Part shown: in pieces, positions 3,545-24,834 of the stretch
Layout of the letters: the number at the start of each line of letters is the position of its first letter
How positions within the stretch are numbered: position 1 is the stretch's first letter
Virus record (IMG/VR): IMGVR_UViG_3300017763_005946
Span: 1-26,195 of that record
DNA: 26,195 nt
Direction: 5' to 3' (one strand)
From: a virus
Notes under the pieces: generated by a model
What the model saw: only the letters and a program-made list of their open reading frames with translations
The model's database searches: none
Told to the model about the DNA's origin: nothing
Position numbers and translations under genes: made by a program

Positions 3545-3792
3545 AAAAGTTTTTATATTTTAGTGCCCCCTGGTGTGGGCCTTGTAAACAGTTAGGTCCT
3601 ATTATGGACGAACTTAATAGTGAAGGATATACAGTTCAAAAAATTGACGTAGACTCAAATCCTGAAATTGTCCAATCCTTTGGAATCAAAAATGTCCCCA
3701 CTGTAATTTTACAAGTAGATAATACAGAAAAGGGAAGGAAAATTGGCCTTGGGTCAAAACCTATGTATATTGACCTATATAATCAGGGTTAA
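3541..3792 (+). CDS. Thioredoxin
   Basis: An 83-aa minimal thioredoxin fold with the redox motif WCGPC (11-15, cysteines 12 and 15) and the cis-proline NVPT (P53). KIDVDSNPEIVQSFGI in between is typical. It lacks the first helix and strand of the 105-aa E. coli protein, as phage thioredoxins and glutaredoxins often do. A likely role is reducing phage ribonucleotide reductase or other dithiol enzymes. A polymerase-processivity role as in T7 is unlikely because this phage has its own sliding clamp. It lies directly before the polymerase gene with a TAATG junction. Confidence 0.92.
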   Translation: MKKFLYFSAPWCGPCKQLGPIMDELNSEGYTVQKIDVDSNPEIVQSFGIKNVPTVILQVDNTEKGRKIGLGSKPMYIDLYNQG

Positions 3793-5507
3793 TGTATAAA
3801 AATTGTTATGTTCAAAGAGGCGAAGAATGGAATCATTATAGAATCCATTTATGGACTGATGAGGGGTATTCTGTAGAAGATTACCAAAACTATGGTTATA
3901 TAGAGTGTTCTGATAGTGCCGCTACTCATGTAGGTCTTAAGGGAGAAACCCTTAAAAGAGTATTTAATTGGGATAGAAATGACCCCCGTATGCATTATTC
4001 TGATCATACTAGGGGAAATATTCATACTAAATTTCTTATAGACAAATATGGTGATGATGATACTCCCTCAGTAACTCATAGAGAAGTATTTTTTGATATT
4101 GAGATTGAAATAGGAGGTGCACTTACTCCGGAATATATTAAAAAAGCCCCTAAACCAGTTACTTCAATTGCCCTTTGGGATAAACAATTAAATGACTGGA
4201 AAATTATTATTTTAGATAAAGATAATAAAATTGAACATACAACGGATAGTCAGGGAAGAGAAGTGATTCCCGTTAGGAGAGAATCTGATCTATTAGAAAA
4301 ATTTCTTAATACATTAGAGGAAATAGAACCAGATATCCTTATAGGTTATAATAGTGATTATTTCGATATTCCATATCTATATTACAGAATTAAAAACACA
4401 TTAGGGGATAGATATGCTAATAGAATGTCTCCTGTTAAAATAGTACAAGAACAAACTTGGAATGAAGATGTACCTATTAGAATAGCTGGAGTTACTTCTC
4501 TTGACTACATGCGTTTGCATAAAAAATATAGCTTTAAAGATGAACCATCATTTAAACTAGATGCCTTAGGAGAAAAGTATGTTGATCAAAAGAAAATAGA
4601 ATATGAAGGTTCACTTGATAGACTATTTGCTGAGGATAAAGAAAAATTTATTGAATATAACTTTGTTGATGTTTTAATACTTAAAAAGTTAGATGAAAAA
4701 TTTCAATATATTAATCTAACTAAAAATCTTGCCCATAAGGGAAAGGTATTATACGAGGAAGTATATTTATCTTCTAAAATTCAGGATGGTGCTATTTCAA
4801 GTTGGCTATTATCTGAAAATATTATACCACCTAATAAAGATTTAGATCCACTTACTAAGAAAAACTATGCAGGGGGGTATTTATTTTGCCCTAAAACAGG
4901 TATCTATAATTATATGTTTGATGAAGATCTCACATCACTATACCCCTCTATTATTATGTCCTTAAATATAGGTAAAGAAACTTATGTAGGTAGAGTATTG
5001 GATTTATATGATGATAGAAATAATAGACTTGGTTTAAACGACTTAGAAAAATTAGTTAACAGAGACCCCGAAGCAGAAATGCCCGTTGAAAATTTGCAAC
5101 GTAAACGCAATAATATGAAACTTAAAGACGTTATAGATACAATTAAAAAAAATAATTTATCTGTAACCGCTAATGGTGTTATGTTTAGAACCGATAAACC
5201 ATCTACCTTAAATGTTATTCTGGATAAATGGTTTGATGAAAGGGTAATGTACAAGAAAGCTATGAAAAAAGCTTATAAAAGTGGTAATAAGAAAGAAGGT
5301 GAACTAAATCACCTAAAGCAATATACAATGAAGATCTTGCTGAATTCACTTTATGGTGCAACTGCTTTACCTAGTTTTAGATACGGTAGTGTTATCCTAT
5401 CAGAAGGTATTACACTTACTGGACAACGAATTATTCAAGAATCAGCTTTATTTGCAAATACACACATGAATAAAGTTCTTAGAAACGAATTAAAAATAGA
5501 ATTATAA
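3792..5507 (+). CDS. DNA polymerase family B, N-terminal piece (exonuclease + motifs A and B)
   Basis: A 571-aa protein that matches T4 gp43 in motif order. The proofreading exonuclease has ExoI FFDIEIE (D102, E104), ExoII IGYNSDYFD (N187, D192) and ExoIII YNFVD (Y289, D293). Polymerase motif A is DLTSLYPSII (379-388), with catalytic D379 and the NIGKET that follows in T4-like enzymes. Motif B is KILLNSLYG (514-522). The chain stops about 50 residues later, before the second catalytic motif (YxDTDS), which is in the ORF at 5770-6696. The two pieces total 879 residues, close to the 898 of T4 gp43, so little or nothing seems to be missing. The protein should need its partner piece to polymerise; the exonuclease could work alone. 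Confidence 0.95.
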   Translation: MYKNCYVQRGEEWNHYRIHLWTDEGYSVEDYQNYGYIECSDSAATHVGLKGETLKRVFNWDRNDPRMHYSDHTRGNIHTKFLIDKYGDDDTPSVTHREVFFDIEIEIGGALTPEYIKKAPKPVTSIALWDKQLNDWKIIILDKDNKIEHTTDSQGREVIPVRRESDLLEKFLNTLEEIEPDILIGYNSDYFDIPYLYYRIKNTLGDRYANRMSPVKIVQEQTWNEDVPIRIAGVTSLDYMRLHKKYSFKDEPSFKLDALGEKYVDQKKIEYEGSLDRLFAEDKEKFIEYNFVDVLILKKLDEKFQYINLTKNLAHKGKVLYEEVYLSSKIQDGAISSWLLSENIIPPNKDLDPLTKKNYAGGYLFCPKTGIYNYMFDEDLTSLYPSIIMSLNIGKETYVGRVLDLYDDRNNRLGLNDLEKLVNRDPEAEMPVENLQRKRNNMKLKDVIDTIKKNNLSVTANGVMFRTDKPSTLNVILDKWFDERVMYKKAMKKAYKSGNKKEGELNHLKQYTMKILLNSLYGATALPSFRYGSVILSEGITLTGQRIIQESALFANTHMNKVLRNELKIEL

Positions 5508-5770
5508 TGGGATTATCTCCACAGTCAATAAGAAGTAACGTTCTCATTCAAATGAATGGTGAATACGTTAAAAAAGAAACCATAATTTCATTAAGTAAAA
5601 ATTGGAATGATAAACAAATTTCGTATTTTCGTAAAATGGTCCAACAAGGAGGAAATTTAAAAATTAATGGTGATTTATTTGAAATTACTATCAATGAAAA
5701 TATTTTAAACTCTCGTGGAGAAAAAGATGGTGGTATAATCACAATCCCCGGTGAAGACGAAAGATTTTAA
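5507..5770 (+). CDS. 87-aa ORF inserted between the two polymerase pieces
   Basis: This ORF separates the two parts of the polymerase. It is joined by TAATG on both sides, and the three ORFs are in three different frames. The protein (start MGLSPQSIRSNVLIQMNG) is mixed alpha/beta, with a central KNWNDKQISYFRKMVQQGG helix and a LKINGDLFEITINEN strand pair. I see no GIY-YIG, HNH or LAGLIDADG motif and no intein or intron boundary, so it is not an evident homing endonuclease, although it may be what remains of the event that split the gene. It could also be a small subunit that bridges the two halves. Function unknown. Confidence 0.75.
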   Translation: MGLSPQSIRSNVLIQMNGEYVKKETIISLSKNWNDKQISYFRKMVQQGGNLKINGDLFEITINENILNSRGEKDGGIITIPGEDERF

Positions 5771-6696
5771 TGAATAATCAAGAACAAATACCGTGGTGGA
5801 TATGTAAAGAAGGTGATAAAAACTTCTGCACATATGTCGACACTGACTCTAACTATTTTCACGCAGAGCCACTTCTGAAACATTTATACCCTAATTTTTC
5901 TGAAATGTCAGAAGAAGAACAGGATGATCTTTTAGAAAAAATGGCCCTTAAGTATCAGGATCTTATTACAGAATACTATGATACATTAGCTGAGGAAGCA
6001 TTTAATATCAATAAACATCGACTTGAAATGAAAACCGAATGTACCATTCGTTCTGGTTTTTTTTCAGGTAAAAGAAGATATGCCCAATATATTACTAAAA
6101 AAGAGGGTATGAAGGTAGAGGATATTGATGTTAAAGGTCTTGACTTTATGAAATCAAATTTCCCACCCTTATTTAAGAAATTCTTTAATGGTATACTTAA
6201 TAAAATCCTATTTGGTGCTACTCGAAGTGAAATTGACCAAGAGATTCTTGAATTCAAAAATAGCCTAAATGAGTTACCACTTGAATTGCTAGGCAAACCT
6301 ACTGGAGTAAAAGACATTAAAAAATATGTTGAACGCCCCCCGGGTGCCGGAAATATATTTACAGTATTAAAAACAGGGGCACCTGTTAATGTTAAAGCTG
6401 CTGTTCGTTATAATGATTTTCTTAGATTTAAAGGTCTAGATAAAAAACACTCACAAATTGTACAGGGAGATAAAATCAAATGGGTATATTTAAAAGATAA
6501 CCCATACAAGATTGACACAATGGGTTTCTTAGACTTTGATTTCCCAGAAGGTATTCGTACATTCGTAGAGACTTATATAGATAGAAACAAAGCATTTGAT
6601 TCAATCTTAAAAAATAAGTTAGAAACCTTCTATAAAGACTTAAGTTGGGGTAGTTTAACCCTTAACACACATGTAAATAATTTTTTCTCATTCTAA
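5770..6696 (+). CDS. DNA polymerase family B, C-terminal piece (motif C, thumb)
   Basis: A 308-aa protein that opens with about 20 residues and then motif C, TYVDTDSNYF (21-30), which carries the second pair of catalytic aspartates of family B polymerases. EMKTECTIRSGFFSGKRRYA and the KGLDFMKSNFP block follow, matching the region of T4 gp43 after motif C and the thumb. The C-terminus THVNNFFSF resembles a clamp-binding peptide, as does the SLDFLFG end of T4 gp43, and the clamp gene comes next. The start ATG at 5770 overlaps the stop of the inserted ORF by one base. It must pair with the 3792-5507 product to form an active polymerase. Confidence 0.93.
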   Translation: MNNQEQIPWWICKEGDKNFCTYVDTDSNYFHAEPLLKHLYPNFSEMSEEEQDDLLEKMALKYQDLITEYYDTLAEEAFNINKHRLEMKTECTIRSGFFSGKRRYAQYITKKEGMKVEDIDVKGLDFMKSNFPPLFKKFFNGILNKILFGATRSEIDQEILEFKNSLNELPLELLGKPTGVKDIKKYVERPPGAGNIFTVLKTGAPVNVKAAVRYNDFLRFKGLDKKHSQIVQGDKIKWVYLKDNPYKIDTMGFLDFDFPEGIRTFVETYIDRNKAFDSILKNKLETFYKDLSWGSLTLNTHVNNFFSF

Positions 6697-7424
6697 TGAC
6701 AGATAAAAGAATAATAGATAGTTTTATAGGTAAATACCATTTAGGTGGTAATATAGAACGAGTTAAGTGGGTTTCAGATGGTGAATCCCTTAAAGCAGAC
6801 TTTATAAATGATTCTCAAAATTTAGTAGGTAAAGTAGTATCTAAAAAATTTAAATTCCCTATAGGTGAATTTGGTATTTATAGTACTTCTACACTTAGTA
6901 AAATGTTAGGGATTCTTGAAAACGAAGTTATGTTTGAAATAGTCAAAGAAAATAAAATTCCCTCTAAATTTACTATTGGGGATACTGCTATGGATATTAA
7001 ATTTAACTTAGCAGACCCTCAAGTTATTCCTAAGGTACCTAATATTAATAAAACTGAAAATGATATTCATGTAGAATTAAATGAAGAATTTACTACACGT
7101 TTTATTAAATCTAAAGACGCAGTAGGTGAAGAAGTATTTTATGTTTCTACCCAAGATGGGTTTACTTCACCTGAAATAAAATTTACTATAGGGAATAGTA
7201 CATCTAATTCAGTATCTTTTGCTTCTCATATAGAAGATAGTAGTTCTGAAGGAGCATTAGATAATATCCCTTTTAATGCGGATTTAGTTAAAGAAATATT
7301 TAAACACAATAAACGTTTTGAATTAGGTTGGATGAGAGTAAATCCAAAAGGATTAATGTCTTTTGCATTTAAATTTGGAGACCTAGAAAGTAATTATTAT
7401 CTTGTAAGAAATCAAAATCAATAA
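6696..7424 (+). CDS. Sliding clamp, T4 gp45-like
   Basis: A 242-aa protein close to the 228 aa of T4 gp45. The call rests on length, on position between the polymerase and the clamp-loader genes, and on the pattern of the C-terminal half: IPFNADLVKEIFKHNK, then FELGWMRV, KGLMSFAFKFGD and YYLV, as in phage clamp second domains. The N-terminal half has the matching FPIGEFGIYSTSTLSKML pattern (about 53-70). It would form a ring on DNA that holds the polymerase and, in T4 biology, also supports late transcription. There are no catalytic residues to check, so a profile search would settle it. Confidence 0.82.
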   Translation: MTDKRIIDSFIGKYHLGGNIERVKWVSDGESLKADFINDSQNLVGKVVSKKFKFPIGEFGIYSTSTLSKMLGILENEVMFEIVKENKIPSKFTIGDTAMDIKFNLADPQVIPKVPNINKTENDIHVELNEEFTTRFIKSKDAVGEEVFYVSTQDGFTSPEIKFTIGNSTSNSVSFASHIEDSSSEGALDNIPFNADLVKEIFKHNKRFELGWMRVNPKGLMSFAFKFGDLESNYYLVRNQNQ

Positions 7425-7429
7425 AAAAT

Positions 7430-7726
7430 ATGGAAAATATACCTATTACACCGTTGGCTGATCGGATTTTAATCCAACCGATTGAAGCTGAAGAATCAAC
7501 CTACGGGAACATTGTTGTTCCTGATATGGGGAAGGATCGTCCTGACTTTGGAACAGTACTTGCAGTTGGGCCCGGCCGTTATGACAATAATGGTAATCTG
7601 GTACCTATGAGAGTAGAAGTAGGACAAAAAGTTATTATGCCTAAGTACGGGGCAAATACCGTAGAAATCGAAGGTGAAGAGTATGTACTCTCATCAGAAT
7701 CAGAAATTTTAGGAGTTATAAATTAA
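7430..7726 (+). CDS. groES: Co-chaperonin GroES
   Basis: A full-length 98-aa GroES. The start PLADRILIQPIEAEE matches the conserved N-terminal strand. The mobile loop STYGNIVVPDMGKDRP (about 24-39) carries the hydrophobic GroEL-binding tripeptide IVV. The GTVLAVGPGRYDNNGN roof loop and the VGQKVIMPKYGANTVEIEGEEYVL body follow. It is one of the few genes with a short non-coding leader (5 bases, A-rich), and groEL starts 6 bases after its stop. It most likely caps the phage GroEL next door, perhaps with different substrates from the host pair. Confidence 0.97.
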   Translation: MENIPITPLADRILIQPIEAEESTYGNIVVPDMGKDRPDFGTVLAVGPGRYDNNGNLVPMRVEVGQKVIMPKYGANTVEIEGEEYVLSSESEILGVIN

Positions 7727-7729
7727 TAA

Positions 7730-9360
<1,631 letters not shown>

Positions 9361-9361
<1 letters not shown>

Positions 9362-10251
9362 TGGATTTATTTGTAGAAAAATATAGACCTAAAGATTTAA
9401 ATGGCTTTGTTGGGGATAATACTATTAGAACCAAAATACAAGATTATTTAGATACAGGTAAACTACAAAATCTACTATTGTTTGGTCCAGCGGGGACAGG
9501 AAAAACCTCGCTGGCCAAACTAATAGTAGATCAATTAGAAGCTGATCATCTTTACATTAATGCTTCAGATGAACGAGGAATTGACACAATTAGAGATAAA
9601 ATAGTCCCATTTGCCTCTAGTATAGGATTTAATGGGCTAAAAATAGTTATATTAGATGAGGCAGATTACCTTACAGCTCAAGCCCAAGCAACCCTTAGGA
9701 ACGTTATTGAAACGTTTTCTACTAGCTGTCGTTTTATATTTACATGTAATTATCTGGACCGTATCATTAGTCCCTTACAGTCTCGTTGCGTTGCCTTTGG
9801 AATTACTCCACCTTCTAAAAAAGAAGTGGGACAACATGTTTTACAAATCTGTGAAAGTGAAAGAATTAACTTTACTAAGGAAGATCTGGGACAAATAATA
9901 ATTACCCATTACCCAGATATTAGAAAAATCCTTAACACAGTACAAGGTAGTGTAAAGGGGGGTAAATTAATTCTAGATTCAAAATCATTAGTTAATACTG
10001 ATTTTGAGAATAAAGTTGTAGCTGCTTTAAAAAATAAAGCTAAACTAAATGATATTAGACAAATAATTGCCGATAGTGGTGCACAACAATTTGAGTCATT
10101 ATTTAGGTGTTTATACGATAATGTAGAAGAGTATACTACAAAGGTAGGCGATGCCATTATAGTAATATCTCAATATCAATATGAATATAGTTTTGTTATT
10201 GATAAAGAAATTTGTGTAGCCGCTATGTTAAATAAATTATTAAAATTATGA
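9361..10251 (+). CDS. Clamp-loader ATPase, T4 gp44 / RFC small-subunit-like
   Basis: A 296-aa AAA+ ATPase with the start VEKYRPKDLNGFVG typical of RFC/gp44. It has Walker A GPAGTGKTS (42-50), Walker B VILDEAD (96-102), a sensor-1 FIFTCNYLDRI segment and the SRC arginine-finger motif (141-143). The C-terminal part is helical and fits the collar domain. With the gp62-like protein downstream it should form the loader that opens the clamp encoded at 6696-7424. In T4 the order is 62-44-45; here the clamp is first and the loader genes come after the chaperonins. Confidence 0.94.
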
Positions 10252-14366: not shown

Positions 14367-15836
14367 ATGAAAAAAGGTTATATTCCCCAAGGGGAGAGAA
14401 AAAAAATACTATTCCTCTGTGATGATATTAGATTACACAGTGGTATAGGTACTATGGGCAAAGAGATTGTCCTAAACACAGCCCATCATTTTAATTGGGT
14501 AAATTTAGGGGCTGCCGTTAAGCACCCTGAACAGGGTAATGCTTATGATTTGAGCCCCCAGATAAATGAAGTAACTGGGTTATCTGATTCTAATGTGAAA
14601 GTAATTCCATGGAGTGGGTATGGAGATGACCAAATTATCCGTCAACTTCTTGAACAGGAAAAGCCAGATGCTATCCTTCATTTTACGGACCCACGTTATT
14701 GGACATGGTTATATAGAATGGAAAAGGAAATTAGAACTAAAATCCCTATGATTTTTTATACTATATGGGATGATTTACCTTATCCAATGTATAATAGAGA
14801 TTTTTATCGTTCAGATGACCTTCTTCTTTGTATTTCTAAACAAACTAAAAATCTAGTTAAAAATGTACTTAGGGACTACCCAAAAGAAGATTGGCAAACC
14901 CAATATGTCCCCCATGGCATAGATGATAAAAAATTCTTCCCTATTGTTAACGATTTTGAATTTGAAGCATTTAAAGAAAAATTCTATGAGGGTAAGGAAT
15001 ATGATTTTGTGGTATTTTGGAATAGCAGAAATATTCGCCGTAAAAATCCTGGTGATTTAGTTACTGCTTGGAGAATATTTACAGACCAATTAACCCCTGA
15101 ACAAGCTGAGCGTTGTTTATTCATAATGCACACAGACCCTATAGATAATAATGGTACAGATATACCTGCAGTTATTGAAACTATGTGTGATCCTAATAAA
15201 AATAAAATTAAATTTACTTATGGTAAATGTGATGAAAAAACCCTTAATTATTATTATAATATGGCAGATGCTCAATTTATGATGACTGATAATGAAGGGT
15301 GGGGATTATCACTCACAGAAGGCCTTATGGCTGGTAATATGCTAATAGCACCCGTTCAGGGGGGTATGCAAGACCAAATGCGTTTTGAAGATGAAAATGG
15401 TGATTGGATTAATTTTACGACTGAATTTCCTACTAATAGCAATGGTAAATACAAAAAATGCGGAGAATGGGCTATACCAATGTTTGGTAAAACACGTTCA
15501 TTAAAAGGTTCACCTCCTACCCCATATATTTATGCTACTCAAGTAGATATAGAAGATGCTGGTTTATCTCTTTTAAAATGTTACAATTTAGGAAAAGATG
15601 AAATTAAACGCAGAGGATTAAAGGGTCGTGATTGGTTATTATCTGAGGAAGCAAGAATGGCAGCTAGTGGTATGGGTCAGAATTTTATAGATAATATTGA
15701 TCATTTATTTGAAAATTGGGAACCTGTGGAAAAATTTAGTATAGAAAAAGTTGGTGACGGACACACCACATATAACCCAAACCCCGTCCAATATACCCCT
15801 GAATTTGAACAAAAATTAAAAGAAGTTTTAGCATGA
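14367..15836 (+). CDS. Glycosyltransferase, GT-B fold (GT4-like)
   Basis: A 489-aa protein. The N-terminal domain begins KILFLCDDIRLHSGIGTMGKEI (13-34), the glycine-rich donor/acceptor loop of GT4 enzymes. The C-terminal domain carries DNEGWGLSLTEGLMAGNMLIAP (about 306-327), which corresponds to the E-x-x-G-x-x-x-x-E motif that binds the nucleotide sugar. WNSRNIRRKNP near 222-232 is a typical inter-domain segment with basic phosphate contacts. It transfers a sugar from an NDP donor with retention; donor and acceptor are unknown. It opens the carbohydrate island and overlaps the next glycosyltransferase by 4 bases. Confidence 0.87.
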   Translation: MKKGYIPQGERKKILFLCDDIRLHSGIGTMGKEIVLNTAHHFNWVNLGAAVKHPEQGNAYDLSPQINEVTGLSDSNVKVIPWSGYGDDQIIRQLLEQEKPDAILHFTDPRYWTWLYRMEKEIRTKIPMIFYTIWDDLPYPMYNRDFYRSDDLLLCISKQTKNLVKNVLRDYPKEDWQTQYVPHGIDDKKFFPIVNDFEFEAFKEKFYEGKEYDFVVFWNSRNIRRKNPGDLVTAWRIFTDQLTPEQAERCLFIMHTDPIDNNGTDIPAVIETMCDPNKNKIKFTYGKCDEKTLNYYYNMADAQFMMTDNEGWGLSLTEGLMAGNMLIAPVQGGMQDQMRFEDENGDWINFTTEFPTNSNGKYKKCGEWAIPMFGKTRSLKGSPPTPYIYATQVDIEDAGLSLLKCYNLGKDEIKRRGLKGRDWLLSEEARMAASGMGQNFIDNIDHLFENWEPVEKFSIEKVGDGHTTYNPNPVQYTPEFEQKLKEVLA

Positions 15837-17158
15837 AACCAACTTGTATAATCAGTTGTCCAATAGATACCTTTAGCGGATATGGGCACCGTTCGCGCGA
15901 TTTTGTTCGCTCACTTATAGAGGTAAAAGATAAAGAATGGGATATTAAAATACTCCCTCAAAGGTGGGGAAACACCCCATGGGGGTTTTTAGATAAAAGT
16001 GATAAACTGCGTTCACGCTTTATAAATGAAATTACCCAACAACCCGAAATTTGGATGCAAATCAGTATTCCTAATGAATTCCAAAAAGTAGGTAAGTATA
16101 ATATTGGTGTTACTGCAGGTATTGAATCAACAGTTCCACCCCCTGATTTTATTAAGGGAATGAATAATATGGATTTGAATCTTGTATCTTCCCAATTTAC
16201 TAAGGATACCTTTAGTCAAGTTCAATTTACTGAAAATGATAAACAAGGTAACCCTATTAATCAAATTAAACTCGATAAACCTATTGAAGTATTATTCGAA
16301 GGGTTAGATACCGGGGTATATTTTAAAGAACCTAATAAATCAGGATTACTTAACAATATAGATGAAAGTTTTTGTTTCTTATTTACGGGTCATTGGTTAC
16401 CTGGTAAATTTGGTGAAGATAGAAAAAATGTTGCTACTATGATTAGAACTTTCCTTAAAACTTTTAATAAGAAAGGTATTAAACCCGCTCTACTATTAAA
16501 AACTAATAAGGTTGATTATAGTTTATTAGATAAAGAAGATATTCTTAAAGATATTAGAAAAATTAGAAATGAATTTACTAATAAAGAAAATCTCCCTAAC
16601 ATTTACATATTACATGGTGAATTTACCAATGATGAACTTAATAAATTAAATAATGATCCTAAAGTTAAGGCGTTTATATCCTTTACTAAAGGAGAAGGCT
16701 TTGGTCGCCCCCTATTAGAACAAGCAATTACAGGTAAACCAGTAATTACAACAAATTGGAGTGGCCATATTGATTTTATTAATGCTCAATATAATGTATT
16801 AATTGGGGGTGAATTAAAACCTATCCATGAATCCGCTGCTAATAAATGGTTACTTAAAGAAGCTAGTTGGTTTAATATTAATATAGAAGCCGCATCACAT
16901 GCCATAAAGGATGTTTATAAAAACTATAGAAAATATGTTGAACAAAGTCGTAAACAAACTAAGTGGCTTAAAGAAAACTTTAGCCAAGATAAAATGACTA
17001 AGGTACTTAAAAACCATATGGATAACATAAATGTGTCAGTAAATGTACCTTTTCAAATGCCCGGATTACAACTCCCTAAACTTAAAAAAGTAAGTGAGGA
17101 AAGCAAACCAGAATTGCCTAAACTTAAACTTCCTAAATTGCAAAAAATAAATGGATAA
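15833..17158 (+). CDS. Glycosyltransferase, GT-B fold (GT4-like), with a Leu-Pro-Lys repeat tail
   Basis: A 441-aa protein with an N-terminal CPIDTFSGYGHRSRDFV loop (about 9-25), a LFTGHWLPGKFGEDRKN segment at the domain junction and the donor-binding motif TKGEGFGRPLLEQAITGKP (about 285-303). The final 30 residues contain three LPKL units (LPKLKK, LPKLK, LPKLQK) that look like a disordered basic extension added to an ordinary catalytic core. The start at 15833 overlaps the preceding glycosyltransferase by ATGA, so the two are probably made together. Donor and acceptor unknown. Confidence 0.86.
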   Translation: MKPTCIISCPIDTFSGYGHRSRDFVRSLIEVKDKEWDIKILPQRWGNTPWGFLDKSDKLRSRFINEITQQPEIWMQISIPNEFQKVGKYNIGVTAGIESTVPPPDFIKGMNNMDLNLVSSQFTKDTFSQVQFTENDKQGNPINQIKLDKPIEVLFEGLDTGVYFKEPNKSGLLNNIDESFCFLFTGHWLPGKFGEDRKNVATMIRTFLKTFNKKGIKPALLLKTNKVDYSLLDKEDILKDIRKIRNEFTNKENLPNIYILHGEFTNDELNKLNNDPKVKAFISFTKGEGFGRPLLEQAITGKPVITTNWSGHIDFINAQYNVLIGGELKPIHESAANKWLLKEASWFNINIEAASHAIKDVYKNYRKYVEQSRKQTKWLKENFSQDKMTKVLKNHMDNINVSVNVPFQMPGLQLPKLKKVSEESKPELPKLKLPKLQKING

Positions 17159-17606
17159 TTTTGAAATATGTCCCTGTTGTGGGTCAAATGCTTGCACAAA
17201 AGCCCCTACTTCTGATGGTAATATTATCCAACAATGTTGGACTTGTGGGATGACTACTAATAACCTAATGGAGGATGGAAGCGAATTTGAAAAAGAAAAT
17301 TATAGCCAAACCGCAGAAATAATAAAGGATCTAAAACAAGTACATGAAAATTTGGCTTGGTATCCTAAAGTTATTAACTTACCCGAAAAGGGGATGGTAT
17401 TCCCCGAATGGAATAAACGAATAAAAGATTGGTATTGGGCTGCTGTTAAAGCAATTCCCGTAACAGAAGAAGAAAAAGATAAATATCCAGATCCTACTAA
17501 CCCAGGAGAATTTTATGAATTTAAAATGGATATTCCTAATATAAAACGTTATGGAAAGGATTGTTTTATGGATGCCGCTGAAGAAATAGGATTATTTGAA
17601 TCATGA
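17151..17606 (+). CDS. Zinc-ribbon protein, 151 aa, phage unknown
   Basis: The N-terminus has CPCCGS (8-13) and CWTCG (about 29-33), a zinc ribbon. The rest is aromatic and acidic (NLAWYPKVINLPEKGMVFPE, then WNKRIKDWYWAAVKAIPVTEEE), followed by GKDCFMDAAEEIGLF near the end. I recognise the style from phage hypothetical proteins but no assigned function. It overlaps the glycosyltransferase upstream by 8 bases and the GT2 gene downstream by 4, so it may be a small partner of the glycosylation enzymes. Confidence 0.68.
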   Translation: MDNFEICPCCGSNACTKAPTSDGNIIQQCWTCGMTTNNLMEDGSEFEKENYSQTAEIIKDLKQVHENLAWYPKVINLPEKGMVFPEWNKRIKDWYWAAVKAIPVTEEEKDKYPDPTNPGEFYEFKMDIPNIKRYGKDCFMDAAEEIGLFES

Positions 17607-18229
17607 AAGACCCTAAAATAAGTTACGCTATACCCGTACATAATGAGTACGAAGAAATAGATGGATTAATTAAGCATCTTTTAAAATATAAAAAAGAAGC
17701 AGATGAAATCGTAGTCCAATGTGATAAAGGCAATACTACAGAAAATGTTTATAAAGTATTAGATAAATATCATAATAAAATTAAGATTATTGAATTCCCC
17801 CTGAATAGGGATTTTGCAAGTTTTAAAAATAATCTTAAAAATAATTGTACTGGGGATTGGGTTTTTCAAATTGATGCTGATGAAATACCTGAGGAATATT
17901 TAATATCTATGCTTCCTACTATCTTAAAACAAAACCCTAATACCGAGGTATTTTGGGTCCCCCGGATTAATACTGTAGATGGTTTAACTAAGGAACATAT
18001 TCAAAAATGGGGGTGGAATGTTGAACCTAATGGTAGAGTTAACTTTCCTGACTATCAATGCCGTATACTCCAAAATACACCTACAATACAATGGGTAAGT
18101 AAGGTACACGAGGTATTATATGGGCATAAGAGCCAAACACAATTACCAGCAAATGATGAGTTTTGTCTTATTCACCCAAAATCCATAGAAAGACAAGAAA
18201 TTCAAAACAACTTTTATAATACAATCTAA
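17603..18229 (+). CDS. Glycosyltransferase family 2 (GT-A fold)
   Basis: A 208-aa protein with the GT2 start ISYAIPVHNEYEEIDGLIKHL (6-26), EIVVQCDKGNT in the nucleotide-binding strand and the metal-binding DADE (91-94, in FQIDADEIPEEY). VSKVHEVLYG further on resembles the acceptor-side motif of the small LgtF-like GT2 enzymes. At 208 residues it is short but complete for that group. It should transfer a sugar with inversion and needs a divalent metal. Substrates unknown. Confidence 0.85.
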   Translation: MKDPKISYAIPVHNEYEEIDGLIKHLLKYKKEADEIVVQCDKGNTTENVYKVLDKYHNKIKIIEFPLNRDFASFKNNLKNNCTGDWVFQIDADEIPEEYLISMLPTILKQNPNTEVFWVPRINTVDGLTKEHIQKWGWNVEPNGRVNFPDYQCRILQNTPTIQWVSKVHEVLYGHKSQTQLPANDEFCLIHPKSIERQEIQNNFYNTI

Positions 18230-18235
18230 TATATA

Positions 18236-19075
18236 ATGGTTTTTTGGAGAACATATAATAATAAGGTATATCCTACTCAAGAAGTAAATATGTTAGGCTT
18301 TCAACTAAATGACCCATCATATATTCCTAATGAGTATCTAGAAAAGCAAAATTTTGTAGTTTTAAGAACTTGTTTCGGTGTAGGTGATTGGGGAATTATA
18401 TCAGCATTTCCACGAAAACTTAAAGAAAAATACCCAAATTGTAAAGTATGGATACCATCACCAAAATTACTTAAAGAAATGTTTGGGCATTTAGAACAAA
18501 ACTGGAGTTCCTGGTCAAGTCCCTTCCAAGTAGTTCATACAATTTTTGACAATAACCCCCATATTGATGGGTTTATTGATTCATTTGAAGGCGATGCTTT
18601 TAATGATCATTACAGAATTACAGATGGTAGTGATACACCCCTTATGGAGGAATTACTAAGATTTTGGCAGTTTAATAATTTTGATAACATAGAACCAGAG
18701 TTATACTTTACAGATAAAGAAATAAAATTATCTAAACAAATAATTAAAGAACACTGTGATGGAAAATTTGGGACTTTACTAATTTCTAACCGCTATAAAA
18801 ATGAAGGGAAAAAATTAATTCAACAAAAGTTAGATGAATATAATTTACCTATGTTCTATTGGACTTCTAAAAAAGATAGTGGTTTTAAATTCAAAAGAGC
18901 ATTAGATTTAAGACATGTGGATACTCGTATACAATTGTGCATTAAAACATTAGCAACTTTTAATGTTGGTAACCAAACAGGGGTAAATGATACAATAGCT
19001 AATTATGTTCCTACTTACACAGTACCTAGAGGTAAATTAGGTTCTAATTACATTAAAAGCGAAATATATCTATGA
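18236..19075 (+). CDS. GT9-like glycosyltransferase or related protein
   Basis: A 279-aa protein. The segment NFVVLRTCFGVGDWGIISAFPRKLKEKYPNC (about 39-69) resembles the N-terminal GDxxxxxPAL...P...I region of heptosyltransferase-type (GT9) GT-B enzymes. CIKTLATFNVGNQTGVNDTIANY near the C-terminus matches their nucleotide-binding end, where a conserved G-x-x-TG lies. The ATG at 18236 leaves a 6-base gap after the GT2 stop. The family is tentative because key GT9 residues are only partly visible. Confidence 0.55.
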   Translation: MVFWRTYNNKVYPTQEVNMLGFQLNDPSYIPNEYLEKQNFVVLRTCFGVGDWGIISAFPRKLKEKYPNCKVWIPSPKLLKEMFGHLEQNWSSWSSPFQVVHTIFDNNPHIDGFIDSFEGDAFNDHYRITDGSDTPLMEELLRFWQFNNFDNIEPELYFTDKEIKLSKQIIKEHCDGKFGTLLISNRYKNEGKKLIQQKLDEYNLPMFYWTSKKDSGFKFKRALDLRHVDTRIQLCIKTLATFNVGNQTGVNDTIANYVPTYTVPRGKLGSNYIKSEIYL

Positions 19076-19749
19076 GAATAGCAGTATACACTTCAATATT
19101 TGGTAAATACGATATACTCCATGAGGATCAATTCCAAATGGAAGGAGTAGATTATTTATGTTTTACGGATGAAGATTTACAATCTAATACTTGGAATATA
19201 ATTAAATCAACCCCTATATATAATGACCCCAACAGGAACGCTAAAAAATATAAAATTTTACCACATAGATACCTTCAGGATTATGATTATTCTGTATGGA
19301 TAGATGGGAATATTTTAATAATATCAGATATTAGGGATTTAATTAAAAAAAGTCACTATCAAGTTTTTGATCACAATAAGACTATTTTAGACCCTAGAGA
19401 TTGTATTTACCAAGAATATAATGCTATTATGCAATTAGGACAACAAAGTGGGAATTATAAAGATAATCCCCAATTAATGCATAAACAAGTAAGTAGATAT
19501 GTAAATGAAGGATATCCCTCCAACAATGGTTTAGCTACTAACCCTATTTTACTTAGGAAACATAATGATCCCGATGTAATAAAGAATATGGAAGACTGGT
19601 GGGTTGAAATAAAATATGGTTCTAGAAGAGATCAATTAAGTTTTAATTATATAGCTTGGAAAAATGATTTTAAATTTAATTATTTAGAGGGTGATAGTAG
19701 AAAAAATAAATACTTTTTACAAACGGGTAAACACCAAAAAAGAAAATAA
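19072..19749 (+). CDS. TOD1/MUCI70 (DUF616)-like glycosyltransferase
   Basis: A 225-aa protein that starts RIAVYTSIFGKYDILHEDQF and continues VDYLCFTDED. Then come NAKKYKILPHRYLQDYDYSVWIDGN (about 56-80) and FNYIAWKND near 200. This is the pattern of the TOD1/MUCI70 (formerly DUF616) glycosyltransferase-like domain, known in plants and bacteria as a nucleotide-sugar transferase fold. The acidic WIDGN stands where a DxD-type motif is expected. It overlaps its upstream neighbour by ATGA. Substrate unknown. Confidence 0.7.
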   Translation: MRIAVYTSIFGKYDILHEDQFQMEGVDYLCFTDEDLQSNTWNIIKSTPIYNDPNRNAKKYKILPHRYLQDYDYSVWIDGNILIISDIRDLIKKSHYQVFDHNKTILDPRDCIYQEYNAIMQLGQQSGNYKDNPQLMHKQVSRYVNEGYPSNNGLATNPILLRKHNDPDVIKNMEDWWVEIKYGSRRDQLSFNYIAWKNDFKFNYLEGDSRKNKYFLQTGKHQKRK

Positions 19750-20094
19750 ATGAATTATAAAGAAACTCGCCCTTGGGGTACATTTGAAAATCTACTAGAT
19801 TCAAACTATTGTAAGGTAAAACAAATTATAATTAAACCTGGGCAATCACCTAGCTACCAATATCACTTTAAAAGAGAAGAAGTATGGGTAGTAGTACAGG
19901 GTGAAGGGGAATTAAAATTAAATGATAAAATAACCCCTGTTATTGCAAATCAAATAATTCATATCCCAGTTGAAGCAAAACACCAAATAAAAAACACGGG
20001 TAACACAGATTTAGTATTTATTGAAGTTCAGTTGGGTTCTTATTTTGGTGAAGACGATATTGTTAGATTAGAAGATAACTATGGAAGAGTATAA
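19750..20094 (+). CDS. Cupin, mannose-6-phosphate isomerase type II-like
   Basis: A 114-aa single cupin domain. RPWGTFENLL (7-16) is the usual start of the type II phosphomannose isomerase domain. Metal-site residues lie in YQYHFKREEVWVVVQGEGE (about 37-55), and the end IEVQLGSYFGEDDIVRLEDNYGR is nearly a consensus. In bacteria this domain is usually the C-terminus of the bifunctional GDP-mannose pyrophosphorylase/isomerase. Here it stands alone, directly before a gene whose N-terminus is a nucleotidyltransferase. It likely interconverts a keto- and aldo-sugar phosphate, or an NDP-sugar. It overlaps the next gene by 14 bases. Confidence 0.88.
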   Translation: MNYKETRPWGTFENLLDSNYCKVKQIIIKPGQSPSYQYHFKREEVWVVVQGEGELKLNDKITPVIANQIIHIPVEAKHQIKNTGNTDLVFIEVQLGSYFGEDDIVRLEDNYGRV

Positions 20095-21607
20095 GGTACT
20101 GATAACCACAAGTGGTATTGGTAGTAGATTAGGTAATCTTACTGATTTTACTAATAAATGTTTAGTTAGAGTAGGAGATAAACCTGCCCTATCTTATATA
20201 ATAGAATCATATCCTAAAGATACTAAATTTGTTATTACTTTAGGGCATTTTGGTTCATATGTAAAAGAATTTTTAGAACTAACATATCCTGATAAAGATT
20301 TTACATTTATTAATGTAGATAAATTTAAAGGAGAAGGAAGTAGTTTAGGATATTCCATATTACAGGCAAAATCTTACCTCCAGTGTCCTTTCATATTTCA
20401 TGCTAGCGATACAATACTAACAAAAGAAGATAAAATTCCTCTCCCTATTACTAACTGGTGTGCTGGAGCATACAAAGAAGAAACATCTCAATATAGAACT
20501 TTAAGAGTTAGTAATAGTAAAGTTACCCTTATAAATGAAAAAGGAGAAATCAACTATGACTATCCTTATATAGGATTATGTGGTATTAAAGATTATAAAT
20601 TATTCTGGTCTTGTTTAGAAAATCTTCCTAATAAACATTCTTTGTCGGATGTACATGTTATTAATGAAATGTTAAAATCTATATCTTTTGAATTTAAACA
20701 AATTGATAAATGGTTAGATATAGGGAACGTTACGGAATTAAATAAAACTAGAAAACATTTTGGTAGTAGTATAGAAGTTTTAGACAAATTAAATGAATCA
20801 ATTTACTTTTTTGATAACTTTGTTATTAAATTTTTTTCTGATCCTGTTACTAATAAAAATAGGGTAGATAGGGCTCTAAAATTATACCCCCTAGTCCCAC
20901 AAATATTAGGATCAACTAATAATTTTTATAAGTACCAAAAAGCTGAGGGTAAACTTTTTTCTAAATCTGTAAATGAAGTATCATTTACTAAATTTTTAAA
21001 ATGGGCCCATAACAACTTATGGATTAAAACAACTAAAGATTCTTTTAAAACTAGCTGCCATAAATTTTATATAGATAAGTCTTTGGATAGAATTTCTTTG
21101 TACCTAAAAGAATATACTGACTGTAACAATATAAATGGGGAGTCTTTACCATCTATTTACTCATTATTTGACCAAATTGACAAACAAAAATTATGTAATG
21201 GAATACCTAGCCAATTTCACGGTGATTTTATTTTAGATAATATAATAGAAACTAATAAAGACTTTACTCTAATAGATTGGAGACAAGATTTTGCTGGCGA
21301 TCTAGAAGTAGGAGATATTTACTACGATCTAGCTAAACTTAACCATAATTTAACGGTAAACCATGGTATTATAGATCAAGGATTATATAGTCACTCTCCC
21401 GAAAACTGTTATATACTATGTAATAGTACTTTGCTAAGATGTAAAAAATTATTACATAAATTTATAATAGAACATGGTTATGACCTTAAAAAGGTAGAAT
21501 TACTTACTTCTATAATTTGGTTAAACATGGCCCCATTACATGAATACCCCTTTAATAAATTTTTATTTAATTTTGGGAAATATAATTTTTATAAAAACTT
21601 ACAATGA
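20081..21607 (+). CDS. Nucleotidyltransferase fused to an APH/choline-kinase-type kinase
   Basis: A 508-aa two-domain protein. Residues 1-235 are a sugar- or choline-phosphate nucleotidyltransferase: ITTSGIGSRLGNLTDFTNK (8-26) holds the GxGxRL-x-x-x-T-x-x-x-NK motif, then VGDKPALSYIIE and HASDTIL for the metal site. Residues about 245-508 are a phosphotransferase of the aminoglycoside/choline kinase type: HGDFILDNII gives catalytic D382 and N387, and LIDWRQDFAGDLEVGDIYYDL gives the metal-binding aspartate and the GD-x-x-YDLAK segment. One chain could therefore phosphorylate a small molecule and then activate it with an NTP, like LicA plus LicC. The substrate is not predictable. Overlaps on both sides support coupled expression. 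Confidence 0.85.
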   Translation: MEEYKVLITTSGIGSRLGNLTDFTNKCLVRVGDKPALSYIIESYPKDTKFVITLGHFGSYVKEFLELTYPDKDFTFINVDKFKGEGSSLGYSILQAKSYLQCPFIFHASDTILTKEDKIPLPITNWCAGAYKEETSQYRTLRVSNSKVTLINEKGEINYDYPYIGLCGIKDYKLFWSCLENLPNKHSLSDVHVINEMLKSISFEFKQIDKWLDIGNVTELNKTRKHFGSSIEVLDKLNESIYFFDNFVIKFFSDPVTNKNRVDRALKLYPLVPQILGSTNNFYKYQKAEGKLFSKSVNEVSFTKFLKWAHNNLWIKTTKDSFKTSCHKFYIDKSLDRISLYLKEYTDCNNINGESLPSIYSLFDQIDKQKLCNGIPSQFHGDFILDNIIETNKDFTLIDWRQDFAGDLEVGDIYYDLAKLNHNLTVNHGIIDQGLYSHSPENCYILCNSTLLRCKKLLHKFIIEHGYDLKKVELLTSIIWLNMAPLHEYPFNKFLFNFGKYNFYKNLQ

Positions 21608-22548
21608 ATTATCCTAAATATTACATAGGACCCATGTCTAAAAATATAGTAAATGCTATTATTGAATTTTGCAATGAAACAAAACATAATATAGGCTTAA
21701 TTCCTTCTAGGAGACAAATAGAGTGGAATGGTGGATATGTTAATAACTGGACTACCGAAGAATTTAGTAAACATGCTATCTCACTAATCCTTAAAAGAGA
21801 CCATTCTGGTCCAGGTCAAGGTTATACAGATGATGATGGTTTTACTTCTTTAAAAGAAGATTGTAAATATTTTAATTTAATTCATATAGATCCCTGGAAA
21901 AAATATCCTAAATATAAAGATGGATTACGATGGACTATAAAAATGATTAAATTTTGTTATAATCTTAATCCCAATATTGAGTTTGAGGTAGGAACCGAGG
22001 AAGCCATAAGAAAATTTGAACCCGGGAAATTAGATATGTTATTAAATGATCTTCATACTACATTAGAAGAAAAAATATTTGCTCAAATTAAATACTTAGT
22101 AATTCAATCAGGTACATCTTTAAAAGGTAATTTAAATACTGGAGAGTATAATAAAAATAGACTTTTAAATATGGTTAAAATAGCTAAATCTTGGAATTTA
22201 CTTTCTAAAGAACATAATGGAGATTATATACCTGTAGATCTTATAAAAGAAAAAATGTCTTTAGGCCTAAATTCAATTAATATAGCCCCTGAATTTGGTC
22301 TTATAGAAACTCAAACATACATAGATAATAATATTGATTTAGATAAATTTTGGGAAATCTGTTATAATTCTAAACGATGGGAAAAATGGGTCAATACAGA
22401 TTTTGATCCACTTACACAAAAAGAAGATTTAATTAAAATATGTGGACATTATGTTTTATCTAATCCTGAGTTTTTAAAAATTAAACCTAATATTGATACC
22501 CAAATTAAAACTAATATAAAGAAAAAATTATATGAGTTATATGGATAA
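21604..22548 (+). CDS. GatZ/KbaZ-like TIM-barrel aldolase family protein (tentative)
   Basis: A 314-aa protein with NIGLIPSRRQIEWNGGYVNN (about 30-49), LILKRDHSGPGQGYTDDDG (about 62-80) and FNLIHIDPWKKYP (about 91-103). These blocks follow the order and spacing of the class II tagatose-bisphosphate aldolase subunit family (SRRQ-x-x-x-x-GGY, RDHGGPGQG, IHIDPWK). That family is often found in polysaccharide loci rather than galactitol catabolism. It would build or split a phosphorylated sugar from a small precursor. Position between the nucleotidyltransferase-kinase and a HAD phosphatase fits a sugar-precursor step. The name is from memory of motifs and needs a profile search. Confidence 0.6.
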   Translation: MNYPKYYIGPMSKNIVNAIIEFCNETKHNIGLIPSRRQIEWNGGYVNNWTTEEFSKHAISLILKRDHSGPGQGYTDDDGFTSLKEDCKYFNLIHIDPWKKYPKYKDGLRWTIKMIKFCYNLNPNIEFEVGTEEAIRKFEPGKLDMLLNDLHTTLEEKIFAQIKYLVIQSGTSLKGNLNTGEYNKNRLLNMVKIAKSWNLLSKEHNGDYIPVDLIKEKMSLGLNSINIAPEFGLIETQTYIDNNIDLDKFWEICYNSKRWEKWVNTDFDPLTQKEDLIKICGHYVLSNPEFLKIKPNIDTQIKTNIKKKLYELYG

Positions 22549-22903
22549 AAGACCAGTTACTATATTTTGTGACATTGATGGTACTTTAGTAACACATACT
22601 AAACCTACAGATTCACAAAGGCCCTCACATAAATTAAATCTATTAGAAGGTACTATAGAAAAAATTTTAGAGTGGGATAAATTGGGTTATAATATTATTC
22701 TTACTACGGGTAGAAAGGAAAGTCTTAGAGAAGTAACTAAAAACCAATTAGAGGAAGCAGGAATCATTTATGATCAATTAATAATGGGTATTGGTGGTGG
22801 TAAACGTTATATTATAAATGATAGAAAACCTTATGGTGATGAAAATTATGCATTTGCCATAAACTTAGAACGTAATAAAGGAATTAAAAGTATAGAAATA
22901 TGA
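22532..22903 (+). CDS. Small HAD-family phosphatase
   Basis: A 123-aa capless HAD enzyme. Motif I is FCDIDGTLV (D14, D16), motif II ILTTGRKES (T58/T59), motif III K91 in GGGKRYIINDRKP and motif IV D97. The sugar-locus phosphatases of this type remove phosphate from intermediates such as Kdo 8-phosphate or heptose phosphates. Two starts are possible: ATG 22532 (17-base overlap with the previous gene) or ATG 22541 (8-base overlap); no ribosome-binding site separates them. It lies directly after the aldolase-like gene, which suits a make-then-dephosphorylate sequence. Confidence 0.87.
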   Translation: MSYMDKRPVTIFCDIDGTLVTHTKPTDSQRPSHKLNLLEGTIEKILEWDKLGYNIILTTGRKESLREVTKNQLEEAGIIYDQLIMGIGGGKRYIINDRKPYGDENYAFAINLERNKGIKSIEI

Positions 22904-23676
22904 GAGTAGCTTTATGTCTTTATGGATTAGTAGGCAGTGATAGAGGAAAGTCCTATGATAAAAAGGGGGGTACTGATGAAGTATTAAAAGAATGTTCTAA
23001 TTCATTCCAAAAACACATTATTAATAAAAACAACACTGATGTATTTTTTCATACATGGGATTATGAATTTGAAAAAGAATTAGTAAAAAATTACACCCCT
23101 AAATTATATAAAATAGAACCCCAAAAAGTATTCGAAAATACAGTTTCGGGCCCCACAAAAAGAGTTCAAGCCCATTATAGTAAATGGTATAGTACAAAAG
23201 TTGTAAATGATCTAAGACAAAAATATGAAGCCGATAATAATTTTAAATATGATTTTGTTATAACTTCCCGTTTTGATATGATTTGGACTGTAGATGTTAT
23301 TTGTGCAAATCTTAATAAAGATATTTTTTATATACCTGGAACTACAAAAGGAAAAGTACCATGGGGATGGCCTAATAATAAAAATGGAACTGATTATGAA
23401 ATAGACGATTTATGGTGTATTAGTAATAGTAAAAACATGGATGATTTTAGTTTACTTTATAACCATATTAACGACTATATTATAAAAGAAAAATGTCCAG
23501 TATGGAATAGTATATCTAACCACATGTTATCTGTTTATCATCTAAAAAAATTAAAATTATTACCTAATAAAACTAAAAGATTATTATGTGGGCCTGAATT
23601 ACCTAATAATACGGGTTACAGTGATTACCAACTTTACAGAACCTTTTTAAAAAAGCAAAATAATGGAATTATATAA
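22900..23676 (+). CDS. Glycosyltransferase-like protein of the carbohydrate island (function unproven)
   Basis: A 258-aa protein starting MRVALCLYGLVGSDRGKSYD and continuing with DVFFHTWD (near 47-54), then SKWYSTKVVNDLRQKYE and FKYDFVITSRFDMIWTVD (about 114-131). These blocks recur in hypothetical proteins of phage and bacterial polysaccharide loci that are often listed as putative glycosyltransferases. SRFDMIW is the best candidate for an acidic donor-binding site. I know no characterised member. The gene overlaps the HAD gene by ATGA and the methyltransferase gene by 14 bases. Confidence 0.6.
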   Translation: MRVALCLYGLVGSDRGKSYDKKGGTDEVLKECSNSFQKHIINKNNTDVFFHTWDYEFEKELVKNYTPKLYKIEPQKVFENTVSGPTKRVQAHYSKWYSTKVVNDLRQKYEADNNFKYDFVITSRFDMIWTVDVICANLNKDIFYIPGTTKGKVPWGWPNNKNGTDYEIDDLWCISNSKNMDDFSLLYNHINDYIIKEKCPVWNSISNHMLSVYHLKKLKLLPNKTKRLLCGPELPNNTGYSDYQLYRTFLKKQNNGII

Positions 23677-24283
23677 ATACAAAAATTACGAGGATTATAA
23701 AAAAAATCAAATTGATGCTAATATAAGAAAGATAAATAATTCTTATGTTGATCCTAATTCTTTATGTTCTTTACTTGATTATTTAGTAAAAGACCTAAAT
23801 ATAAACCCAAAATTAATATTATGTCATGGTACTAGAAGAGGATTAGAACAACAATATATTATTGATTTTTTGAACCCTCTAGGCTACACTCCTGAAGTTA
23901 TTGGTACCGAAATAAGCCCCACAGCTACAGATTATCCTCATACAATACAATGGGATTTCCATGAAACAAAACCAGAATGGATCAATAATACAGACATAGT
24001 TTATACAAATTCTTTTGATCACTCATGTAAACCACAAGAATGTCTAGATACATGGATGTCATGTCTAAATAATAAAGGAGTTTGTATTATAGAATATAGT
24101 CCGGATTGTGATAATAAATCTCAAGCAGCTGATCCTTTTGCGGCTACATTAGATGAATATAAAACTTTTATTAAAGAAAAATATGAAATTGTAGATGTAT
24201 TAGTTAATGAAGGAATTCCCGATAATGGGCTTACCCATAAAGGTGTTAGATATTTTATTATTATAAATAATAAAAATGAGTAA
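23663..24283 (+). CDS. SAM-dependent methyltransferase-like protein
   Basis: A 206-aa Rossmann-like protein. LILCHGTRRGLEQQYI (about 52-67) stands where motif I (a glycine-rich loop after a strand) occurs, VIGTEISPTATDYPHTIQWDF gives the acidic post-I strand (E82), and NTDIVYTNSFDHSCKP gives motif IV with D and N residues. GVCIIEYSPDCDN is the motif VI strand. The pattern matches small methyltransferases that modify sugars in polysaccharide loci. Its place between glycosyltransferase-type genes suggests a methylated glycan. Confidence 0.65.
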   Translation: MELYKYKNYEDYKKNQIDANIRKINNSYVDPNSLCSLLDYLVKDLNINPKLILCHGTRRGLEQQYIIDFLNPLGYTPEVIGTEISPTATDYPHTIQWDFHETKPEWINNTDIVYTNSFDHSCKPQECLDTWMSCLNNKGVCIIEYSPDCDNKSQAADPFAATLDEYKTFIKEKYEIVDVLVNEGIPDNGLTHKGVRYFIIINNKNE

Positions 24284-24821
24284 GTGTATTTTAGTAGGAA
24301 ATAGTTCAAATATTCTAAATAAAGAACTGGGATCCTATATTGATAGTTTTGAAAATGTAGTTAGGTTTAATAGGTTTAAAGTTAAAGATTTTGAAAAAGA
24401 CTTAGGTACAAAATGCACCTACTGGGTATTAAATTATAAATTAACTACTGATAGTAGGAATTATTTAGTAAAAAATTTACCCAAAATAAAATCAGAAACA
24501 ACAAACCTAGAAAAAGCTTTAATACTAACAACAGCAAAAGATAAGGGACAAATAAATAAAATTAAGAAACAAGTAGATATAGAAGTTATTTATAAAAGAT
24601 TTGAACCCCTTTTTGATTCAAAACCTACTACTGGTCTTCTGGCAATTAACTATTTTTTAGAACAATTTTCCCAATTAACATTAGTGGGATTTGATTTTGG
24701 GAAAAGCAATCATTATTGGGGTAACCATAATATATCCGATATCCCCGGTAAACATGAATGGGGCAAAGAAAAAAAATACATTAACGATTTAGTCAAACAA
24801 AATAAAATAGAAATGATATGA
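24276..24821 (+). CDS. GT29-like sialyltransferase family protein
   Basis: A 181-aa protein with the sialylmotif-like start CILVGNSSNILNKELGSYID (4-23), VVRFNRFKV and KDLGTKCTYWVLN. This is the same order as in GT29 enzymes (VGNS-x-x-L...G..ID....V.R.N.......DVG..T). A second block PTTGLLAINYFLE (117-129) matches the small sialylmotif, and LVGFDFGKSNHYWGN with KHEWGKEK near 160 provides the conserved H and E. GT29 enzymes transfer a CMP-activated sialic acid; bacterial relatives may use other CMP sugars. A CMP-sugar synthetase gene begins 0.9 kb downstream, which supports the call. It is shorter than animal enzymes because it lacks the stem and membrane anchor. Confidence 0.75.
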   Translation: MSKCILVGNSSNILNKELGSYIDSFENVVRFNRFKVKDFEKDLGTKCTYWVLNYKLTTDSRNYLVKNLPKIKSETTNLEKALILTTAKDKGQINKIKKQVDIEVIYKRFEPLFDSKPTTGLLAINYFLEQFSQLTLVGFDFGKSNHYWGNHNISDIPGKHEWGKEKKYINDLVKQNKIEMI

Positions 24822-24834
24822 ACAACGAACAAAA

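Follow-up and report, generated by a model that had tools for sequence, protein, structure and literature searches.

The DNA polymerase of the phage sequence studied here is encoded in two pieces, and we consider it very probable that a homing endonuclease split its gene, leaving a noncovalent two-chain polymerase. The gap between the two genes would then be a site for passenger genes, of which the 87-aa gene found there is the commonest, and the product of this gene would not be needed to join the halves. The window, by which we mean the whole stretch of DNA analysed, is the 26,195-base IMG/VR virus record IMGVR_UViG_3300017763_005946, a metagenomic fragment; the features discussed are collected in Table 1.

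What kind of polymerase is encoded in the window? The N half carries Exo I (FFDIEIE), Exo II (YNSDYFD), Exo III (YNFVDV), motif A (DLTSLYPSI) and motif B (KILLNSLYG), and ends in the tail KVLRNELKIEL. Aligned with RB69 gp43, it corresponds to residues 189-611 and the C half to residues 608-840, the exonuclease and palm motifs A, B and C following in co-linear order, and phrog_262 spans both halves. Sliding clamp and clamp loader genes neighbor the polymerase, as expected of a member of the T4-type gp43 group, in a neighborhood that also holds thioredoxin and GroES/GroEL genes. The single chain that is usual, though not universal, in the gp43 family is replaced by two ORFs in different frames; together with the 87-aa ORF in the gap, the starts at 3792, 5507 and 5770 occupy three frames. 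At both TAATG junctions the final A of the TAA stop is also the first base of the next ATG, a one-base overlap. Thus, the arrangement described in an earlier reading of the letters and ORFs (hereafter the sequence-only reading), with a split between motifs B and C, an 87-aa ORF in the gap, TAATG junctions and three frames, is confirmed throughout.

The same reading held that the two ORFs add up to a full T4-size enzyme, and this is the case: the 571 and 308 residues of the halves sum to 879, compared with 903. The closest annotated unsplit relative is the PolB of Microcystis phage Mel-JY01 (848 aa), in which residue 552 pairs with residue 563 of the N half and residue 557 with residue 17 of the C half; hence, no residues are missing, and about 20 have been gained at the break. 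The break sits after motif B, at about residues 608-611 of RB69, and only about 20 residues ahead of the catalytic motif C. The GroES and GroEL genes (7430-9361) lie inside the replication cluster, between sliding clamp and clamp loader, in an order like that of the unsplit sister clade described below. Further along, positions 14367-25764 hold a run of apparent glycan-type genes.

Table 1. Features of the split polymerase locus and its surroundings in the window
Feature	Position	Strand	Content or basis
N half of split T4-type (gp43) family B DNA polymerase, 571 aa	3792..5507	+	Exonuclease (3'-5'), palm motif A, fingers, motif B; from sequence and relatives with both halves
TAATG stop/start overlap, N half to 87-aa gene	5505..5509	+	Sequence
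87-aa gene, probable passenger, of a free-standing phage gene family	5507..5770	+	Predicted beta-alpha-alpha-beta
TAATG stop/start overlap, 87-aa gene to C half	5768..5772	+	Sequence
C half of polymerase, 308 aa	5770..6696	+	Split-specific head (IPWWICKEGDKNFC), motif C YVDTDS, rest of palm, thumb
P-x-x-I-C-containing head extension of C half, proposed interface element	5788..5832	+	Conserved in split enzymes, absent from unsplit
Sliding clamp (gp45-like), next in replication cluster	6696..7424	+	phrog_223, E 1.7e-5
Clamp loader large subunit (gp44-like)	9361..10251	+	phrog_168; no 87-aa gene directly before gp44 here, unlike some unsplit sisters

The same break is found in 116 of 120 deduplicated IMG/VR rows, while the polymerase is unsplit in three near relatives and in the outgroups. 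Among the split rows, the N and C genes overlap or touch in 24, the gap holds the 87-aa gene alone in 38, the 87-aa gene with other ORFs in 49, and other ORFs only in five. The commonest junction among split relatives is ATAATG, and in many of them N and C overlap by 1-4 bases. With dN/dS values of about 0.04-0.11, both halves are under strong purifying selection.

Could the split nevertheless be apparent, one protein being interrupted by an assembly frameshift or made by programmed frameshifting or read-through? The window is a single contig, and its N side and C side match different relatives: compared with L111 (and the near-identical L083 and L084), it is about 80% identical upstream of position 6063, shows zero mismatches from 6064 to at least 6700, and stays near 100% until about 11.7 kb. 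As judged from the sequences, the switch near 6063 may mark either a recombination boundary, which would lie close to the split, or a chimeric join in the assembly. However, many samples have yielded contigs with the identical break, more than 100 in all, in which gaps can contain up to 5.9 kb of other genes, and the C half has acquired a new initiation codon and a conserved head. A split that recurs in over 100 independent contigs is due neither to chance nor to an assembly frameshift, the outcome that the sequence-only reading had named as fatal to its proposal and that was not borne out; we regard this explanation as practically negligible.

The same holds for a rejoining of the halves by a split intein or a group I intron, which we consider next to impossible here. 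Phage MIJ3 provides a precedent, with a split intein and an HNH gene in PolB (PMC6892783), and intein-like ends occur in the jumbo phage LR756508. In the window, however, the N half ends 8 residues past the last residue aligned with Mel-JY01 and the C half begins 16 before the first; these extensions are too short for the N and C parts of an intein, neither of which was found at the break, and the lack of an intein signature makes protein splicing unlikely. For an intron, the 1-4 base overlaps of many relatives leave no space. The jumbo phage itself (L110; LR756508.1 258500-268500, from a 484-kb uncultured phage) is a separate case: some 4 kb beyond the N part of its polB, the C part, at 7937, starts ...HHFACGVGSIVVHN followed by TDSVF, where motif C bears the C-terminal signature of an intein. 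By this signature, it is a probable split-intein fractured polymerase.

The origin of the break is illuminated by a sister clade with about 38-47% identity to the window halves, in which the polymerase is unsplit and the conserved helix after motif B is separated from motif C by 32 residues, as in Mel-JY01. In four of its members (L342-L345), the gene is broken at the equivalent site by a nuclease-type gene. Those of L342, L344 and L345 are 88-91% alike, and each is 49-50% identical to the gene in the gap of L049, a member of the window clade; related nuclease genes thus occupy one site in both clades. The L342 gene matches phrog_314 'homing endonuclease' (E 4e-18) and NUMOD1, and that of L345 matches NUMOD1; Pfam GIY-YIG scores are at or slightly under the curated cut-off, so that the call rests on NUMOD1 and the PHROG homing-endonuclease match. 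The L343 gene is a diverged copy, 32-34% like the other three, with no family match of its own. In the window clade, gap nuclease genes are of GIY-YIG type (L049, L089), HNH type with CapR (L067) and T5orf172 type (L011, L121), the last being a GIY-YIG subfamily of homing nucleases (PMC10448857). Relatives with a nuclease at the break (L049, L067, L089, L011, L121, L342, L344 and L345) can be set against unsplit sisters such as L302 and L321, the pattern expected of a split by homing. The window's own break has no endonuclease gene, its gap holding the 87-aa ORF only; a homing origin is inferred because present-day insertions sit at the same site in relatives, the ancestral inserter of the window lineage being gone. 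The N-half tails of L067, L070, L081 and L049 differ where an HNH or GIY-YIG gene comes next (KDPKFKEEFLNSL; LVKSPEATKDFLENL), as if their last codons had come in with the nuclease gene.

How often did the split arise? In a tree rooted on unsplit relatives (23 unsplit rows), the whole clade has a support of 100, and the unsplit L120 and L272 are sisters of the window's group, nested inside split lineages with a support of 98; monophyly of all split rows is rejected (AU p 0.0007). An earlier tree, rooted on Mel-JY01 alone, was dropped for its very long outgroup branch. The P-x-x-I-C head occurs in 87 of 92 distinct split C halves, spanning all three split lineages (the window group, L121 and the rest), and was not found in the unsplit enzymes listed. 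On this tree, one basal split, one later re-fusion and separate breaks in the sister clade amount to 4 changes, the simplest reading, versus 5 for three independent splits. By this count, the nested unsplit lineage is likely, though not proven, to be re-fused, with the reservation that recombination between the halves could disturb the tree.

The gap has become a place for genes of many kinds. We surveyed 119 distinct filled gap regions, including a few outside the clade, and found the 87-aa family in 102 of them; the other occupants include Smr-like genes (27), mannose-6-phosphate isomerase-type cupins (17), DUF6165 (13) and DUF2452 (9). Further cargo comprises cytidylyltransferase, DAHP-synthase type, transaldolase, PLP-dependent (cysteine-synthase type) enzyme and methyltransferase genes, as well as an NAD-dependent epimerase recognized by eye. 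Gaps range from 0 to 5.9 kb, the longest being that of L227, their content includes metabolic genes as well as the nuclease genes, and nearly all gap genes are co-directional with the polymerase. In the window, a cupin-like ORF at 19750-20094, far from the break, is similar to the cupin of mannose-6-phosphate isomerase type that L090 and L172 carry in their polymerase gap.

What can be discerned about the 87-aa protein? The sequence-only reading had proposed a search for unsplit relatives and for homologues of this protein, and both were found. The homologues share 40-91% identity at nearly constant length, and dN/dS between relatives is about 0.07-0.36, so the ORF is a real gene. Its reported lack of an endonuclease motif stands: Pfam, PHROG and PDB sequence searches gave no confident match, and no GIY-YIG, HNH, LAGLIDADG or T5orf172 domain was detected in sequence searches, with structure searches coming back empty. 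The predicted structure, a beta-alpha-alpha-beta arrangement of moderate confidence (pLDDT 73), has no fold match (best E-values 2.3 in the PDB and 0.06 in BFVD). A DNA search of phage records returned mainly GroEL matches, and tblastn with the 87-aa protein returned none. Of the 80 best 87-aa loci, in a sample of locations biased by seeding the search with gap copies, 57 lie between polymerase halves, three flank a C half where the contig ends, and 20 lack such context. One of the loci outside any polymerase gap is that of L210, where the polymerase is unsplit. GroEL and gp44 are the neighbors in L210, L321, L338 and L345, although the GroEL/gp44 junction of the window is empty; other neighbors are ribonucleotide reductase (L190 and L216, recognized by eye), DNA ligase (L263), a DnaB-type helicase (L093) and a PD-(D/E)XK protein (L143). 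In L194 and L195, the ORF directly upstream of the 87-aa gene opens with an intein-like stretch ending in VVHNC, after which comes an apparent ribonucleotide reductase piece.

These locations bear on the suggestion of the sequence-only reading that the insert is a small subunit joining the halves. A dedicated third subunit that bridges or regulates them would agree with the 87-aa gene being the commonest resident of the gap (87 of the 116 split rows), with its conservation at near-constant length, and with the stop/start overlaps that link it, in the window, to the genes of both halves. However, it is missing from the gap in the remaining 29 rows, and no copy was detected on the 95-113-kb contigs of insert-free split phages (L036, L037, L040, L132, L181), which may or may not be complete genomes. 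In relatives whose polymerase is unsplit it sits separately, beside GroEL/gp44, DNA ligase or PD-(D/E)XK nuclease genes, the very finding that the sequence-only reading had named as one that would refute it, and other phage contigs have it next to a ribonucleotide reductase or helicase gene. Moreover, it is more diverged than the halves, with dN/dS up to 0.36 versus about 0.05. The joiner proposal thus loses its footing and a third-subunit role is highly improbable; most likely, the protein is dispensable for joining the halves.

The other suggestion made there, that the insertion is the relic of a homing-endonuclease event, needs to be divided. Homing is indeed the best explanation of the split, given the nucleases in the same gap and at the sister-clade breaks. 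It is very hard to believe, however, that the 87-aa ORF itself is a decayed remnant of the endonuclease that split the gene: it has no similarity to the gap nucleases, accompanies them as a separate ORF in L049, L067 and L089, belongs to a separate family that has free-standing members elsewhere, and is under purifying selection. A further explanation, compatible with a homing origin of the split, is that the 87-aa family is a mobile gene or a replication factor that spreads near core replication genes independently of any nuclease. This would account for the range of its neighbors, from PolB, GroEL/gp44 and ribonucleotide reductase to DNA ligase, DnaB-type helicase and PD-(D/E)XK genes, but the protein has neither a nuclease domain nor a fold match, no transfer was seen, and the sample of locations is biased as described, which leaves it rather unlikely, if well worth keeping in view. 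Our best guess is that it is an accessory gene of the replication region that hitch-hiked into a tolerated site.

Taken together, our analysis suggests the following scenario for the homing-derived two-chain polymerase. The invader would have been a free-standing homing endonuclease, probably GIY-YIG/NUMOD, that inserted in gene 43 immediately ahead of the motif C codons and divided the gene; the large clade of uncultured T4-like phages concerned would have inherited its two-chain replicative DNA polymerase from a common ancestor. Both halves presumably gained short tails and stayed under strong purifying selection, assembling noncovalently through the palm into a gp43-like enzyme, for which the split gp43 and split NrdA described below are reported precedents; the split-specific P-x-x-I-C head of the C half may help to form the interface. 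Joint expression would have been kept by operon junctions with overlapping stop and start codons (TAATG or ATGA). The endonuclease gene was then presumably lost from most lineages, leaving the gap as a tolerated landing site for co-directional passengers, of which the 87-aa gene, often found beside core replication genes, would be the commonest. In a model of the isolated C half, built on a shallow alignment of 14 rows, only the thumb is confident, while the palm part (residues 1-32 and 77-128) has pLDDT <50. Such low confidence in the palm might hint at a need for the N half, or may simply reflect the 14-row alignment. Going further, one may tentatively see the split as a maintained trait, although we think the odds are against it: a cut at a permissive palm loop would have made the most essential replication gene of an ancient clade a protected, exchangeable cargo site, with the P-x-x-I-C head as a new subunit interface and at least one lineage re-fused.

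Until now, split gp43 was seen in a few Aeromonas phages; here, a palm split is inherited by a large uncultured clade, and by this inheritance the split is both old and stable, and the enzyme may be the replicative one. Since the set spans unsplit sisters, sisters with a nuclease at the site, descendants free of the endonuclease, gaps filled with cargo and a lineage that is probably re-fused, every stage between invasion by a homing endonuclease and a domesticated enzyme of two subunits is open to testing. For annotation, it carries a warning that a small ORF within a split gene may be unrelated to the split. A literature search, mostly of open papers, returned no report of this palm split or of a polymerase gap as cargo site.

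Several known systems are nonetheless related to it. In Aeromonas phages 44RR and 25, gene 43 is split as 43A/43B (Petrov et al., 2010, as summarized in the review PMC2988022), and by the account in that review the split gp43 subunits co-purify and are active. Their records (NC_005135, NC_008208) resemble the window clade in encoding a T4-type gp43 as two adjacent cistrons, with a homing-endonuclease gene in the gap of phage 25. The precedent drawn by the sequence-only reading, in which the Aeromonas insertions are linked to a homing endonuclease, is thus sound as to the split gp43 but not in its detail: only phage 25 has such a gene, 44RR being split without one, and the break lies in the fingers before motif B (43A of 498 aa, KILINSLYG in 43B), whereas that of the window follows motif B. 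Unlike those of the window clade, the Aeromonas gaps consist of untranslated sequence or a seg-type gene, with no cargo and no 87-aa gene.

Beyond gp43, the split nrdA of Aeh1 (mobE) and T4 gene 60 (mobA) likewise have a homing endonuclease in a critical part of an essential phage gene, and the split product works, split NrdA being reported as functional; they concern other enzymes, however, the endonuclease is still in place, and no diversified cargo is reported (PMC2988022). In MIJ3, a phage family B polymerase is also encoded by two ORFs with a gene between, but its halves are proposed to be rejoined by protein splicing, through a split intein with an HNH gene, whereas the window clade has no intein (PMC6892783). 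The OM43 phages MEP401 and MEP402 and their group I relatives, likened here by description, have a two-ORF DNA polymerase whose parts flank a small ORF of unknown product, a pattern that recurs within a clade of marine phages; these are 43-kb phages with a family A polymerase, for which the authors suggest an intron (PMC10580990). Finally, 'HEG islands' resemble the window clade in that homing nucleases (T5orf172, HNH) sit inside or close to genes that are essential, those of the replisome among them, at exchange boundaries, but their nuclease genes persist, whereas the gaps of the window clade have mostly lost them (PMC10448857).
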